Below, in pieces: positions 1 through 64,000 of a DNA stretch of 64,000 nt. The stretch lies in the NCBI RefSeq assembly GCF_001484195.1, contig NZ_LLYW01000050.1, forward strand, positions 1-64,000. Reading direction: 5' to 3'. How positions within the stretch are numbered: position 1 is the stretch's first letter; each line of letters begins with the position of its first letter. This DNA is from Thermococcus celericrescens. Lineage in GTDB: Archaea; Methanobacteriota_B; Thermococci; Thermococcales; Thermococcaceae. The translations under genes were made by a program, and so were the position numbers. The notes under the pieces were generated by a model, which did not search any database, was not told the origin of the DNA, and saw only the letters and a list, made by a program, of their open reading frames with translations.

Positions 1-59
1 CTCGAACCGGGGACCGCCGGATTAACAGTCCGGCGCTCTACCGACTAAGCTACGGCGGC
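1..59 (-). tRNA. tRNA-Asn (GTT), 3' end cut by window edge
   Basis: Read on the minus strand, the 5' acceptor strand GCCGCCG, a D-arm and an anticodon stem-loop CCGGACTGTTAATCCGG are visible, followed by a variable loop and the start of the T-arm (GGTTCGAG). The anticodon is GTT, which reads asparagine codons. The acceptor 3' strand lies outside the window, so whether CCA is encoded cannot be seen. A TATA-like TTTATAAA lies about 30 nt upstream. Confidence 0.93.
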
Positions 60-200: not shown

Positions 201-277
201 GCCCCGGTAGCCTAGCCTGGTGGGGCGGCGGACTTGTAATCCGCCGGTCGCGGGTTCAAATCCCGCCCGGGGCTCCA
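201..277 (+). tRNA. tRNA-Thr (TGT)
   Basis: The acceptor strands GCCCCGG and CCGGGGC pair. The anticodon stem-loop is GCGGACTTGTAATCCGC with anticodon TGT, and the T-arm is CGGGTTCAAATCCCG. The discriminator base is T and the CCA end is encoded (to 277). A palindromic repeat cassette starts six nucleotides after the CCA. Confidence 0.96.
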
Positions 278-283
278 TTCTAA

Positions 284-592
284 CAAACTTCGCGAAGGCG
301 AAGTTTGATCAAGGTTCGTAGCCCCTTCTGGAAGTGTCAATTTTCAAGTGGTTTCTCATTATCGGAGCGTTTAACACGGAGAACAACTCTAAAATACTCC
401 CGTACAAGGGGTTTGCTTTTTTGACGCCCTTCGGGCGTCTTTTGGAGTTAAACCCCTTCAACAGGAACACCAAAATGGTTCTCACCTGAAACGTTGGCCT
501 TGAGTTGAGAAACCACCTTTCCAAAGTGCAACCTGGAGAAGAGCTACGAACTTTTGGTGAAGCTTTTGGAAACGCTTTTTGACCAAAATTCG
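284..592 (+). repeat. tRNA-linked palindromic cassette, copy 1
   Basis: This gene-free stretch 3' of tRNA-Thr(TGT) is one of four related cassettes in the window. It opens with a palindrome of 10-bp arms (CAAACTTCGC, 284-293; GCGAAGTTTG, 298-307; loop GAAG), followed by ATCAAGGTTCGTAG. About 130 nt from the tRNA is a double stem: outer arms AAGGGGTTT (406-414) and AAACCCCTT (450-458) enclose a 7-bp hairpin GACGCCC/GGGCGTC (423-439). The distal end (about 544-592) is a long imperfect inverted repeat that carries the opening flank in inverted orientation (CTACGAACTTTTGGTGAAGC). A 112-codon reading frame on the minus strand (309-647) falls on these structures and has no recognisable domain, so I take it as non-coding. 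Confidence 0.75.
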
Positions 593-22234: not shown

Positions 22235-22294
22235 CGGCCTCGGCTAACCCTCTTCTCCTCACCGCTCAGCGTGGCTAACGCTCGTCATCGGCCG
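22235..22294 (-). ncRNA. C/D box sRNA candidate (divergent pair, minus strand)
   Basis: On the minus strand the order is: stem CGGCC, box C ATGACGA (22282-22288), a 12-nt guide, box D' CTGA (22266-22269), a 4-nt spacer, box C' TGAGGAG, an 11-nt guide, a D-like CCGA (22240-22243), and stem GGCCG. The two ends pair perfectly over 5 bp. Boxes C' and D deviate by one base from consensus. A TATA box lies 25 nt upstream. Such RNAs guide 2'-O-methylation of rRNA or tRNA; the target was not identified. Confidence 0.6.
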
Positions 22295-37317: not shown

Positions 37318-37643
37318 TGAAGCTTTTGGAAAACTTCACCAAGGAAAGTTTGCAGGGCAAAGTTCCATCAAAGTTCGTGGTTCTTGGTTGGGGAGCTATT
37401 TGGGAATGTATTTTCCCGAGTGTTGGCCTTTTCGATTGTGAATTCAATTTTTAGCGAGCTTGTTATTCGTGAGTTTGCATTTTAATCGACGCCCGCAGGG
37501 CGTCAAGGAGAGAAACTCCTTTTTGGTTGGCTTGTCTGAAGAATTCACTGACTTTTGGGTTCGTGTATTGTGAAAATCCTCGGAGAATAGCAATTTTGGG
37601 AAGAACCACTGACCTTGATCAAACTTCGCGCAGGCGAAGTTTG
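37318..37643 (-). repeat. tRNA-linked palindromic cassette, copy 2
   Basis: This gene-free stretch lies 3' of tRNA-Arg, which reads on the minus strand. In that orientation it opens with the palindrome CAAACTTCGC/GCGAAGTTTG (37620-37643, loop CTGC) and ATCAAGGTCAGTGG. A double stem follows about 130 nt from the tRNA, with arms around GAGTTT/AAACTC enclosing the hairpin GACGCCC/GGGCGTC (37488-37504). The distal end is the inverted block ACGAACTTTG and GAAGCTTTTGG near 37318-37385, here interrupted by an inserted hairpin (GGAAAGTTTGC..GCAAAGTTCC). No coding sequence is supported. Confidence 0.7.
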
Positions 37644-37649
37644 ATTTGC

Positions 37650-37725
<76 letters not shown>

Positions 37726-51457: not shown

Positions 51458-51534
51458 GCCCCGGTGGCTCAGCCTGGTGGAGCGGCCGCTTGGTAAGCGG
51501 CAGGCCGCGGGTTCAAACCCCGCCCGGGGCTCCA
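51458..51534 (+). tRNA. tRNA-Thr (GGT)
   Basis: The acceptor strands GCCCCGG and CCGGGGC pair; the anticodon stem-loop is CCGCTTGGTAAGCGG with anticodon GGT; the T-arm is CGGGTTCAAACCCCG. Discriminator T and CCA are encoded. It shares its acceptor with tRNA-Thr(TGT) at 201-277, and a palindromic cassette starts six nucleotides after the CCA. Confidence 0.96.
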
Positions 51535-51539
51535 TTCTA

Positions 51540-51842
51540 CAAACTTCGCCTTCGCGAAGTTTGATCAAGGTCCGTGATTCCTTTTGAAAAAAGCGTGCTT
51601 TGAGTGGATTTCTCTGAGGACTGCTTTTTGGGCAGAATTGATTCATTCCAAGGAGGTGTTTCAGGAGGGTTCAAGCGTTTTTGGCGCTCCTTCGGAGCGC
51701 GGTTCAAGTGAAACCCGCGTGAAAAAGCTTTATTTTCGATGACTCAACCTTCTAAAGGCCAAGTTTGGACTTGAAATCCCTTCTGCAAAGGAGCCTTAAA
51801 GGGAATCACAGACTTTTGGTCAAGCTTTGTTAAAGCTTGCTC
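51540..51842 (+). repeat. tRNA-linked palindromic cassette, copy 3
   Basis: It opens with CAAACTTCGC (51540-51549), loop CTTC, GCGAAGTTTG (51554-51563), then ATCAAGGTCCGTGATTC. The loop is the reverse complement of that in copy 1, so the palindrome appears inverted. The double stem is near 51657-51714 (arms GTTTCA/TGAAAC; inner hairpin GCGCTCC/GGAGCGC). The distal end is the inverted block GAATCACAGACTTTTGGTCA with a hairpin around AAGCTTTGTTAAAGCTT (about 51805-51842). No gene is supported here. Confidence 0.75.
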
Positions 51843-51959
51843 TGTACTCTCAAACCCCGAAATGGCTACACCATATATCCTAGACCTTTTCTTCCAACTT
51901 GGCGGGAATCCGAGCGTGCATTTTAAAATTTGCTCGTGAATAGGGTTTGACTTTAAAAC

Positions 51960-52085
51960 AGGCTGTTGAACAGGTTTCATTCTTATTCTGGCGTCTTTGG
52001 ACGCCTTGTGGGGAGTGAAACACCGTAGAACTCCCAATTAAAGAGCAAACCACTTAGAAAACAAGCTTTTTTAAAATTGCATGCC
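51960..52085. repeat. partial extra copy of the cassette's double stem
   Basis: Arms GGTTTCA and TGAAACACC (51973-52024) enclose a hairpin GGCGTC-TTTG-GACGCC. The following ACTCCCAATTAAAGAGC resembles the matching part of cassette 4 (TTCCCAATCCAAAAGAGCC, 52303 onwards), so this is a partial duplicate in that orientation without end palindromes. The rest of 51843-52100 is otherwise featureless. Confidence 0.55.
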
Positions 52086-52099
52086 ATTTTCCGCCAGCG

Positions 52100-52440
52100 T
52101 TGAAGCTTTTAAGAAAAGCTTCACCAAAAGTTCGTGATTCTTTTTGGAAAGGGTTTCATTACAAGTGTTTGCATTATAGATGGTCCTTTAAAGCTTGGAA
52201 TTCAGCATCTATCTAGTATTTGCTTTTTGAGGTTTACTTTTTCTCGCGCTCCTCCGGAGCGCTTTCTAGAGGTAAACCTAACTTCAAGAGAGTTTAAAGA
52301 TGAATTCCCAATCCAAAAGAGCCGTTAGAACACAAACACTCCTTCAAAATTGAACTTACAGAGAGAATCACAAACCTTGATCAAACTCAACGGGACTGTC
52401 GTCCCGTGCGTTGAAGCTCCGCTTCAACGTCGCGCAGGCG
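52100..52440 (-). repeat. tRNA-linked palindromic cassette, copy 4 (expanded)
   Basis: It lies 3' of tRNA-Pro, reading on the minus strand. The outer stem CAAACT/AGTTTG is kept but two more hairpins lie inside it: GTTGAAGC-GGA-GCTTCAAC and ACGGGAC-GAC-AGTCCCGT, adding about 50 nt. ATCAAGGTTTGTGATTC follows. The double stem (arms AGGTTTA/TAAACCT, inner hairpin GCGCTCC/GGAGCGC) lies at 52230-52279. The distal end is the inverted block with GAAGCTTTT and GCTTCACCAAAAGTTCGTGATTC's first part (52100-52140). Confidence 0.7.
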
Positions 52441-52450
52441 AAGTTTGCAC

Positions 52451-52528
52451 TGGTGGGGCCGCCGGGATTCGAACCCGGGTCACGGGCTCCCAAAGCCCGC
52501 AGGATGGACCAGGCTACCCTACGGCCCC
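52451..52528 (-). tRNA. tRNA-Pro (TGG)
   Basis: The acceptor strands GGGGCCG and CGGCCCC pair; the anticodon stem-loop is GCGGGCTTTGGGAGCCCGT with anticodon TGG; the T-arm is CGGGTTCGAATCCCG. CCA is encoded. A TATA-like CTTAATAAGG is about 30 nt upstream on the minus strand. Cassette copy 4 begins directly after it. Confidence 0.95.
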
Positions 52529-52569: not shown

Positions 52570-52632
52570 CGCTGGAAGCTTTTGGGAAAGCTTCACCCAA
52601 AGTTCGTAGCAAGCTTTTTCCAAAAGCTTGCT
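52570..52632 (+). repeat. solo copy of the cassette's distal block
   Basis: GAAGCTTTTGGGAAAGCTTC followed by ACCCAAAGTTCGTAG matches the distal end of the tRNA-linked cassettes. A second inverted repeat (AAGCTTTTTCCAAAAGCTT) follows. It lies upstream of the topoisomerase gene and 5' of tRNA-Pro, without the rest of the cassette. Confidence 0.6.
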
Positions 52633-62603: not shown

Positions 62604-64000
62604 TTTTCAATTCTCCTAGAGTCTTATTATCTGGGGGGACGTCCCGTCCCCCACACCCCCTCAAGATCCACCCAACTCTAGGAAGTCTTACTGCGACCCC
62701 GTTTCAATTCTCCTAGAGTCTTATTGCAACTCAGGGTCAGTTGCAGTTCCTTAGCGAGTTCATCTTTCTTTCAATTCTCCTAGAGTCTTATTGCAACACC
62801 TGGGCGAATTTATCTTTTACGTCCCAAAAGTCGGTGCTTTCAATTCTCCTAGAGTCTTATTGCAACGTACTTTGCCCACCAAGGCTCTTCTTGCATGGTC
62901 TCTTCTTTCAATTCTCCTAGAGTCTTATTGCAACTTTTGAGAATAGAGGGGTATATAGGTTCATTTAAAGACTTTCAATTCTCCTAGAGTCTTATTGCAA
63001 CCATAGCCGGGTGGTGTAGTTGGCCAAGCATGCCGGTCTTGTTTCAATTCTCCTAGAGTCTTATTGCAACCTTAATTTCCACCCTCCAACAAGAGCTGGC
63101 TAAAGTCAGGTTTCAATTCTCCTAGAGTCTTATTGCAACCCGTTATGCCGTAGATTACGTGCCGGACGAGATCTACGTTTCAATTCTCCTAGAGTCTTAT
63201 TGCAACTATATGAGATAGTCCCCGACGAAGAAGTGATGCTTAGTTTCAATTCTCCTAGAGTCTTATTGCAACGATCAAAGATGACCGCAATGAAGAGCTT
63301 CACCGGAAGGTTTCAATTCTCCTAGAGTCTTATTGCAACATGATCAGGGAGATAGACAGAAAAGAGGTCGAGGAGTCTTTCAATTCTCCTAGAGTCTTAT
63401 TGCAACCCGCTCGCCGGTCCCCTTCGCGGTGAGCTACGACCGCTTTCAATTCTCCTAGAGTCTTATTGCAACGAGTTCGAGGATGACTATCCGCGTGAAC
63501 TCGGAACAGCTTTCAATTCTCCTAGAGTCTTATTGCAACCCGGCTGATAATCTGAATATCGTTTTTGCCGAATTTCCTTTCAATTCTCCTAGAGTCTTAT
63601 TGCAACCGGCGGTCGTCACCACACCCACCATTACTGCCCCGGCTTTCAATTCTCCTAGAGTCTTATTGCAACGTGATGGGGATGGCGAGGGTTGTTGGCA
63701 CCATAATTGCTTTCAATTCTCCTAGAGTCTTATTGCAACGGACGTCGGCAACGATGAGGACGTTGAGACCATCAGGCTTTCAATTCTCCTAGAGTCTTAT
63801 TGCAACCTGTTTCATGTCCTGATAGGGGTTCGATAGAAGCTCCCTTTCAATTCTCCTAGAGTCTTATTGCAACGGGTTTCAGCCCGCTCCAGTTCCCCGA
63901 CTTCAGCCTCTTTCAATTCTCCTAGAGTCTTATTGCAACATCAAAAGCCCTCATTCCTTCGCCCCCAGGGCCTTGCTTTCAATTCTCCTAGAGTCTTATT
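62604..64000 (-). CRISPR. CRISPR array, 20 regular repeats and two degenerate ones, runs off the right edge
   Basis: Regular 30-nt repeats begin at 62701, 62768, 62837, 62905, 62972, 63041, 63110, 63177, 63243, 63310, 63377, 63443, 63510, 63577, 63643, 63710, 63777, 63844, 63910 and 63976 (the last is cut). The plus strand reads TTTCAATTCTCC and then TAGAGTCTTATTGCAAC, preceded by C or G. Nineteen spacers are 36-39 nt. In Thermococcales the transcript repeat starts GTTGCAATAAGACTC, so transcription is on the minus strand and the leader lies beyond 64000. The left end is the old, trailer end, with a repeat lacking its 5' bases (62604-62628) and a decayed one at about 62668-62697. No cas genes or leader are in the window. 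Confidence 0.97.

Follow-up and report, generated by a model that had tools for sequence, protein, structure and literature searches.

Palindrome-ended cassettes behind tRNA and other small-RNA genes of Thermococcus, a candidate family of mobile units

In a 64,000-nucleotide stretch of the Thermococcus celericrescens genome (assembly GCF_001484195.1, contig NZ_LLYW01000050.1, positions 1 to 64,000; hereafter the window), each of the four complete tRNA genes called by ARAGORN is followed by a palindrome-bounded unit. A first-pass annotation had left open whether these units are a mobile element that targets the 3' flank of tRNAs or a conserved RNA trailer. Here we ask which of the two the anatomy, spread, position, and turnover of the units favor, and how they compare with known systems.

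Anatomy of the units in the window

The same ordered unit had been claimed behind tRNA-Thr(TGT), tRNA-Arg(TCG), tRNA-Thr(GGT), and tRNA-Pro(TGG), and our analysis agrees: in all four the parts could be located in the order palindrome, arm ATCAAGGT.., central hairpin, mirrored arm, and second palindrome. The overall shape is an imperfect foldback of ~300 nt with a central hairpin and a palindrome at each end (Table 1). The left palindrome, CAAACTTCGC-loop-GCGAAGTTTG or a close form, starts 6, 6, 5, and 3 nt after the CCA in units 1 to 4 respectively, inside the 7 nt first given, and in the tRNA-Pro copy it is indeed expanded by further hairpins. Past it, all four units carry the flank ATCAAGGT(T/C)NGT(A/G)(A/G)(C/T)(C/T)C; the exact flank "ATCAAGGTTCGTGATTC" of the first-pass annotation occurs in none of the four, and what stands is this common form. 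The central stem was likewise recovered in each unit, with GACGCCC..GGGCGTC in two of them and GCGCTCC..GGAGCGC in the other two. A mirrored outer flank and a second palindrome, also described before, are present in 4/4 units, with the palindrome of unit 1 being degenerate. The outer arms, each mirroring the other, constitute terminal inverted repeats, and the extents first proposed are correct to about ten nt. When 15 units from the window's genome were folded, 10 gave a hairpin, a long foldback closed by the outer arms, and another hairpin, while the best folds of the remaining five have their ends paired in another way or incompletely.

Table 1. Cassettes, host tRNA genes, and other RNA features of the window (positions of the window; source or details in the last column)
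Feature	Coordinates	Strand	Source or details
tRNA truncated by window start	1..59		Rfam
tRNA-Thr(TGT), host of unit 1	201..277	+	ARAGORN
Left palindrome, unit 1	284..307	+	6 nt past CCA
Unit 1	284..585	+	arms GTAGC../..GCTAC; centre 423-439; degenerate right palindrome to about 585
C/D-box sRNA sR34	22238..22292	-	Rfam
Unit 2	37343..37643	-	6 nt past CCA; arms GTGGTTC/GAACCAC; centre 37488-37504
tRNA-Arg(TCG), host of unit 2	37650..37725	-	ARAGORN
tRNA-Thr(GGT), host of unit 3	51458..51534	+	ARAGORN
Unit 3, type 2	51540..51839	+	5 nt past CCA; centre 51684-51700; right palindrome and flank within 51811-51839
Type 3 unit between units 3 and 4	51840..52101	.	centre 51990-52005; extent set by neighbours
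Unit 4, type 2	52102..52447	-	3 nt past CCA; expanded left palindrome; centre 52246-52262; right palindrome and flank within 52102-52132
tRNA-Pro(TGG), host of unit 4	52451..52528	-	ARAGORN
Two palindromes and 16-nt arm remnant, 5' side of tRNA-Pro	52575..52630	+	sequence reading; probable scar
CRISPR array	62701..63939	-	19 repeats matching Rfam CRISPR-DR6

Two features go beyond the first-pass annotation. A type 3 unit separates units 3 and 4, and by our reading the whole interval between tRNA-Thr(GGT) and the convergent tRNA-Pro (51540-52447) consists of three units and nothing else. On the 5' side of tRNA-Pro are two palindromes with an arm remnant, which, by analogy with scars in two other genomes (G021 and G027, see below), are the probable scar of a deleted unit. 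Type 3 is a third type of cassette, found directly behind tRNAs and within arrays; examples in the window's genome lie behind tRNA-Met (L018, contig C16) and tRNA-Arg(CCG) (L016, C37) and start with CAGC..GCTGGCGGAA. A fourth type of repeat, GC-rich with the form CAACGAAAGACAAGGGGGCTCCGCCCCC..GTACTCTCAAACCCC, follows the CCA at L102, L209, L214, and other loci and also links units.

Spread of the family and its position relative to small-RNA genes

A BLAST search of 284-592 against the window's 2.34 Mb draft genome (73 contigs) returned 21 rows, seven of them inside the window. The other matches include one behind tRNA-Val (75% identity over 282 nt) and one behind tRNA-Gly (83% over 101 nt), so the units share more than the palindrome alone, as the first-pass annotation had supposed. 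Of 42 matches to the Rfam tRNA model in this genome (the flanks of two are cut off at contig ends), reading of the flanks shows a type 1 or 2 unit immediately after the CCA in 15 and a type 3 unit in two more. Counts in three genomes put the share of tRNA flanks with a unit of type 1, 2, or 3 at 38-44%, and 31 of 45 isoacceptors have such a unit in at least one species.

Across the genus, a pattern of the unit end with up to two mismatches matched 57 of 61 genomes among the matches listed. A slightly shorter pattern matched 73 of 94 family genomes, with few copies each in the 16 of 33 matched outside the genus, again among the matches listed. Reversed-pattern controls gave near-zero matches in both searches. 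Among the matches listed, there were none in G022, G033, and G060; G003 also has zero pattern matches yet holds a diverged copy behind tRNA-Thr, so that zero counts are underestimates. Chance similarity or an assembly artefact, which the draft state of the window's genome might suggest, is very improbable, given that many single-contig genomes have these ends too and that the reversed controls stay near zero among the matches listed.

The exact pattern, searched over a genome collection, was found in 73 stretches, all from MAGs and all titled Thermococcus or Thermococcaceae; this list may omit near relatives, and some of the MAGs are also among the G-numbered genomes. No match was found in viral contigs searched with the exact pattern or in plasmids and phages searched with one unit as query, and a viral or plasmid origin was rejected on these grounds. 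The family is thus real, common in Thermococcus, and, as far as seen, confined to Thermococcaceae. Rfam 15 gave no gathering-score match over the window units or ten further loci. We found no description of such a family in the literature searched, a scope that excludes most subscription papers, nor in the available portions of PMC5495485, PMC5316973, PMC5006619, and PMC6614799.

The 73 exact-pattern stretches were picked without regard to tRNAs and contain 78 ends in total, with 69 of them positioned 3' of a tRNA (ARAGORN calls within 1300 nt for 65, reading by eye for four), a fraction in line with the tRNA association first proposed. In 33 of the 78, the matched inner arm is 18-23 nt behind the tRNA 3' end in the left orientation. 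Another 32 are found 3' of a tRNA at no more than 1300 nt from it, most of them around 265, 570, or 830 nt (outliers at 164, 375, 441, and 724 nt). A single end is 5' of a tRNA. For the other 12 ARAGORN called no tRNA, but a tRNA end is visible by eye upstream of four (L109, L124, L131, and L132). Second ends fall mostly at ~265, ~570, or ~830 nt, which indicates that units are stacked in arrays. In three complete or two-contig genomes, ends on the 3' side within about 1.1 kb of a tRNA amount to 15 of 21 (G002), 7 of 10 (G005), and 7 of 16 (G012), or 29/47 in total, for a chance expectation of about 2.5% (44 tRNAs × 1.1 kb in 2 Mb; our own arithmetic); two of the 15 in G002 belong to intron-bearing tRNAs found by reading, and the other two genomes were counted from tRNA calls alone. 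The unit starts 0-11 nt past the CCA, mostly 2-6 nt, and the spacer is 2, 3, 5, or 6 nt in 111 of 129 tRNA-adjacent left ends, a set that informs the spacing and not the fraction because its loci were partly chosen by their tRNAs.

The same placement was seen behind other small-RNA genes. The H/ACA sRNA Pab160 (Rfam, 93 bits) ends 4 nt before a left end at L142, where no right end was seen. An sR47-type C/D sRNA (Rfam, 42.8 bits against a cut-off of 40) lies 4 nt before the left end at L155, whose arms are unlike types 1 and 2, and sR36 (Rfam) lies 2 nt before a left end at L084. A further C/D-like sRNA, under the Rfam cut-offs with best scores of 26-38 bits, precedes a left end by 4-6 nt in all four of L060, L074, L084, and L104. 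If the units are mobile, these cases suggest that the target is small-RNA gene ends in general, which retains the strong association with tRNA 3' flanks claimed at first and widens the target to C/D and H/ACA sRNA genes.

Of 286 left-type ends, 71 fall outside every upstream class used, and some arrays have no visible adjacent RNA gene (on contigs C3 and C18 of the window's genome, and some in G002). Stop codons were considered as a target and rejected for lack of enrichment: an ORF stop lies within 15 nt of 7/286 left-type ends, four of them overlapping the palindrome, as against 5.4% of 20,000 random positions, a comparison that is not strict because the ends had been pre-sorted into tRNA, sRNA, and array classes. 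Beside what is apparently the same gene, the window's genome (L058, C18:48220-48860) and G002 (L097, C1:782150-783100) both have a tRNA-less array with partly different units. At tRNA-Thr(TGT) in G017, G006, and G008 (L202, L204, and L193), a C/D-box-like sequence was seen by eye within about 10 nt in two of the genomes, and in the third a unit and an apparent promoter stand between the tRNA and that sequence.

Turnover between relatives and between tRNA genes

Homologous flanks differ in their units. Among 30 genomes each, the flanks of tRNA-Thr(TGT) and tRNA-Pro(TGG) are empty or carry a type 1/2 or a type 3 unit, and that of tRNA-Pro may also carry another GC-rich repeat. The window's genome (G000) can be compared with a close relative, G027, to which its aligned flanks are 84-99% identical, mostly above 90%. 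Behind tRNA-Leu(TAG), G000 has a type 2 and G027 a type 3 unit, followed by downstream sequence that is 97.9% identical, and the units differ also at Met, Pro(TGG), Arg(CCG), Cys, Thr(GGT), and Gly(GCC), the last with downstream sequence that does not match.

Some of these differences can be polarized by parsimony without a species tree. At tRNA-Met, G000 has a type 3 unit about 2 nt past the CCA, ahead of the unit that is near the CCA in G027, G021, and G042. Shuffling within arrays is another possible source of this type 3 unit, since a similar one (97.3% identity over 187 nt) lies farther along the array of G027 itself. At tRNA-Gln(TTG), the CCA-proximal unit of G000, G002, G016, G023, G027, and m4561 aligns to the second unit of G021, which therefore has an extra type 2 block in first place; three more genomes have some unit here and m4571 is empty, among the matches listed. 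Within 70 of the 85 rows of this comparison, the differences at tRNA-Met (in G000) and tRNA-Gln (in G021) look like gains.

Losses appear as well. At tRNA-Val(GAC), a 26-nt direct repeat surrounds an extra unit and is the sole candidate for a target-site duplication, none of which could be established. A loss is the likelier reading here, in place of a duplication: G021 bears an internal-deletion scar of the same unit, so that G027 has most likely lost the unit. A similar scar is found at G027's tRNA-Cys, and in both scars the deletion is internal, between the outer arms. Insertion-like differences were also found between G017 and G006/G008 at tRNA-Thr, and between G017 and G006, G007, G008, G020, and G055 at tRNA-Pro; these may be gains or losses, because the filled forms seem to carry the promoter of the next gene too.

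Closely similar units also recur behind different tRNAs. The first 346 nt past the ends of tRNA-Arg(GCG) and tRNA-Asp(GTC) in G055 are 100% identical, although the tRNA bodies differ, and divergence begins where the next unit starts. In MAG m356, the units of tRNA-Ile and tRNA-Val(TAC) are 97.4% identical over 270 nt. When 139 flanks were each compared with those of other genomes, the closest match came from a different tRNA in 99 of the 127 cases in which the same tRNA was available elsewhere, a figure that is only indicative because tRNA sampling is uneven; the four closest cross-genome pairs are of the same tRNA. In the sense that they differ between close relatives and recur across loci, the units are evolutionarily mobile.

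Such recurrence would also arise if the units were passive, old palindromic repeats that survive under weak selection and are moved only by homologous recombination or gene conversion between tRNA genes. Gene conversion via tRNA 3' homology would explain the common blocks without transposition: the start of the identical block in G055 coincides with the tRNA 3' end, a region of sequence common to tRNAs, and the frequent best matches at other tRNAs, weakened as they are by the sampling, point the same way. Further, at tRNA-Thr(GGT) and tRNA-Val(TAC) the left palindromes of G000 and G027 differ while the arms are alike. With left ends also behind non-tRNA genes (those of C/D and H/ACA sRNAs) and arrays without a neighbouring tRNA, we regard this explanation as improbable.

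Candidate functions, candidate movers, and relation to known systems

The main rival to mobility is a functional RNA or terminator, in which the units serve tRNA and sRNA genes as 3' modules (trailers of structured RNA, or terminators working in both directions) and are shuffled by recombination with their function kept. Its RNA form bears on base pairing, for which 387 flanks yielded 104 units with both ends, namely 57 of type 1, 42 of type 2 (41 distinct), and five unclear ones that were left out. Over 36 consensus pairs, type 1 (n = 57) has 91.6% standard pairs, compared with 88.6% (maximum 89.3%) in 200 shuffles, and 11 pairs changed on both sides, compared with a shuffle mean of 4.5 and a maximum of 8, which favors a functional module; its 31 further pair types are within the shuffle range (mean 28, maximum 33). 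Type 2 (n = 41) has 90.7% standard pairs, compared with 88.7% (maximum 89.8%) in shuffles, and shows no covariation beyond them (3 two-sided pairs, mean 3.3); when its structure is slid by one column, there are 6 two-sided changes, more than the 3 of the real structure. Pairing is thus kept, with weak covariation support in type 1 only, and kept pairing is no proof of an RNA because palindrome correction during DNA replication could give the same result.

The terminator form was assessed by T and pyrimidine counts only. Runs of at least four T within 60 nt are found behind 62% of tRNAs with a type 1/2 unit (n = 164) and 66% with a type 3 unit (n = 41), compared with 30% of those with no unit (n = 122), a difference that is partly built in because many left palindromes themselves contain TTTT; by the peak number of T in a 10-nt stretch, the three groups are alike (5.56, 5.61, and 5.44 respectively). 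The tight spacing past the CCA, the similar placement behind C/D and H/ACA sRNA genes, and the convergent tRNA-Thr/tRNA-Pro gap made up of units alone would all suit a functional module. Against it, flanks with no unit and no following tRNA number 20/39 in the window's genome, 16/39 in G021, and 23/45 in G027 (counted with our own patterns), and G022, G033, and G060 have no pattern match among the matches listed. Overall, a functional module seems possible, with the balance of evidence tilted against it.

We favor, with moderate confidence, the explanation that these are non-coding, palindrome-ended elements, about 250-350 nt long, which spread as whole units within Thermococcus and settle at the 3' ends of small-RNA genes, chiefly tRNAs. 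A new unit would enter at the 3' end of the gene and shift older units outward, and insertions may persist there because 3' flanks would be harmless sites in a compact genome. One possible mover is a transposase supplied in trans that works on the palindromic ends; another is gene conversion, with tRNA 3' ends and common palindromes as its partners. The mobile-element option of the first-pass annotation is supported in part, by identical units at two tRNAs, whole-unit differences between relatives, and the association with tRNA 3' sides; its transposase, target-site duplication, and autonomous copy were not found. No autonomous copy was noticed in the loci read, and the transposase profile search covered the Y1 family. 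A Y1 transposase (PF01797) has genes in only 15 of 61 genomes, with 46/61 lacking a match, and G002, G009, and G012 have no PF01797 and yet 21, 18, and 16 pattern matches among the matches listed; a Y1 (IS200/RAYT) transposase as general mover was rejected for this reason. Also against the spreading of units into small-RNA 3' ends are G012, with only 7 of 16 ends near a called tRNA, and the remnant 5' of tRNA-Pro. A bolder version, which we consider unlikely, holds that trans-encoded transposition inserts the cassettes at small-RNA 3' ends by reading the end of transcription or an exposed RNA/DNA end and not the sequence, in which case outward stacking would resemble that of CRISPR spacers and each flank would be a dated record of insertions.

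Among known systems, miniature inverted-repeat transposable elements (MITEs) are short and non-coding, have mirrored ends, occur in many copies, and are present or absent between species, all of which applies to the cassettes. The cassettes differ in that no target-site duplication or parent transposase was found for them, their ends are palindromic in themselves, and they are tied to small-RNA 3' ends. REP/BIME elements with RAYT (Y1) transposases and PATE-like derivatives of IS200/IS605 share with the cassettes palindromic ends, an intergenic 3' location, and occurrence in clusters; the cassettes, however, are foldbacks of ~300 nt and are associated with tRNAs, and a Y1 gene is present in 15 of 61 genomes only. 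The earlier terms "MITE-like" and "REPIN-like" hence hold as a likeness and not as membership, because transposase, target-site duplication, and autonomous copy were not found.

Archaeal integrases of the pTN3, pT26-2, and SSV types use the tRNA gene itself as the site of recombination and duplicate part of it in the process. They appear to resemble the cassettes in using tRNA genes as docking sites; no partial tRNA copy was noticed at the cassette junctions read. Thermococcales integrases act at tRNA loci according to PMC5495485, and there the cassettes provide fast-changing markers.

According to PMC6614799, the casposase of A. boonei inserts preferentially at the tRNA-Pro 3' end and reads a TCAAATC leader motif, and its insertion is compared there with insertion beside the leader-proximal palindromic repeat of CRISPR adaptation (Cas1-type); the extra cassettes are likewise gene-proximal and beside a palindrome. 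The 14-15 bp duplication of the tRNA end that marks casposons was not seen by eye at the few distal cassette junctions read.

The dictyostelid retrotransposons TRE3 and Skipper-2, as described in PMC5006619, also insert downstream of tRNA genes, potentially safe sites in gene-dense genomes. They are protein-coding and land roughly 7-136 bp downstream, whereas the archaeal cassettes are non-coding and start mostly 2-6 nt past the CCA. The cassettes look like an undescribed kind of mobile element docking at small-RNA gene ends and, if mobile, would be a prokaryotic counterpart of the eukaryotic targeting of tRNA flanks as safe sites.
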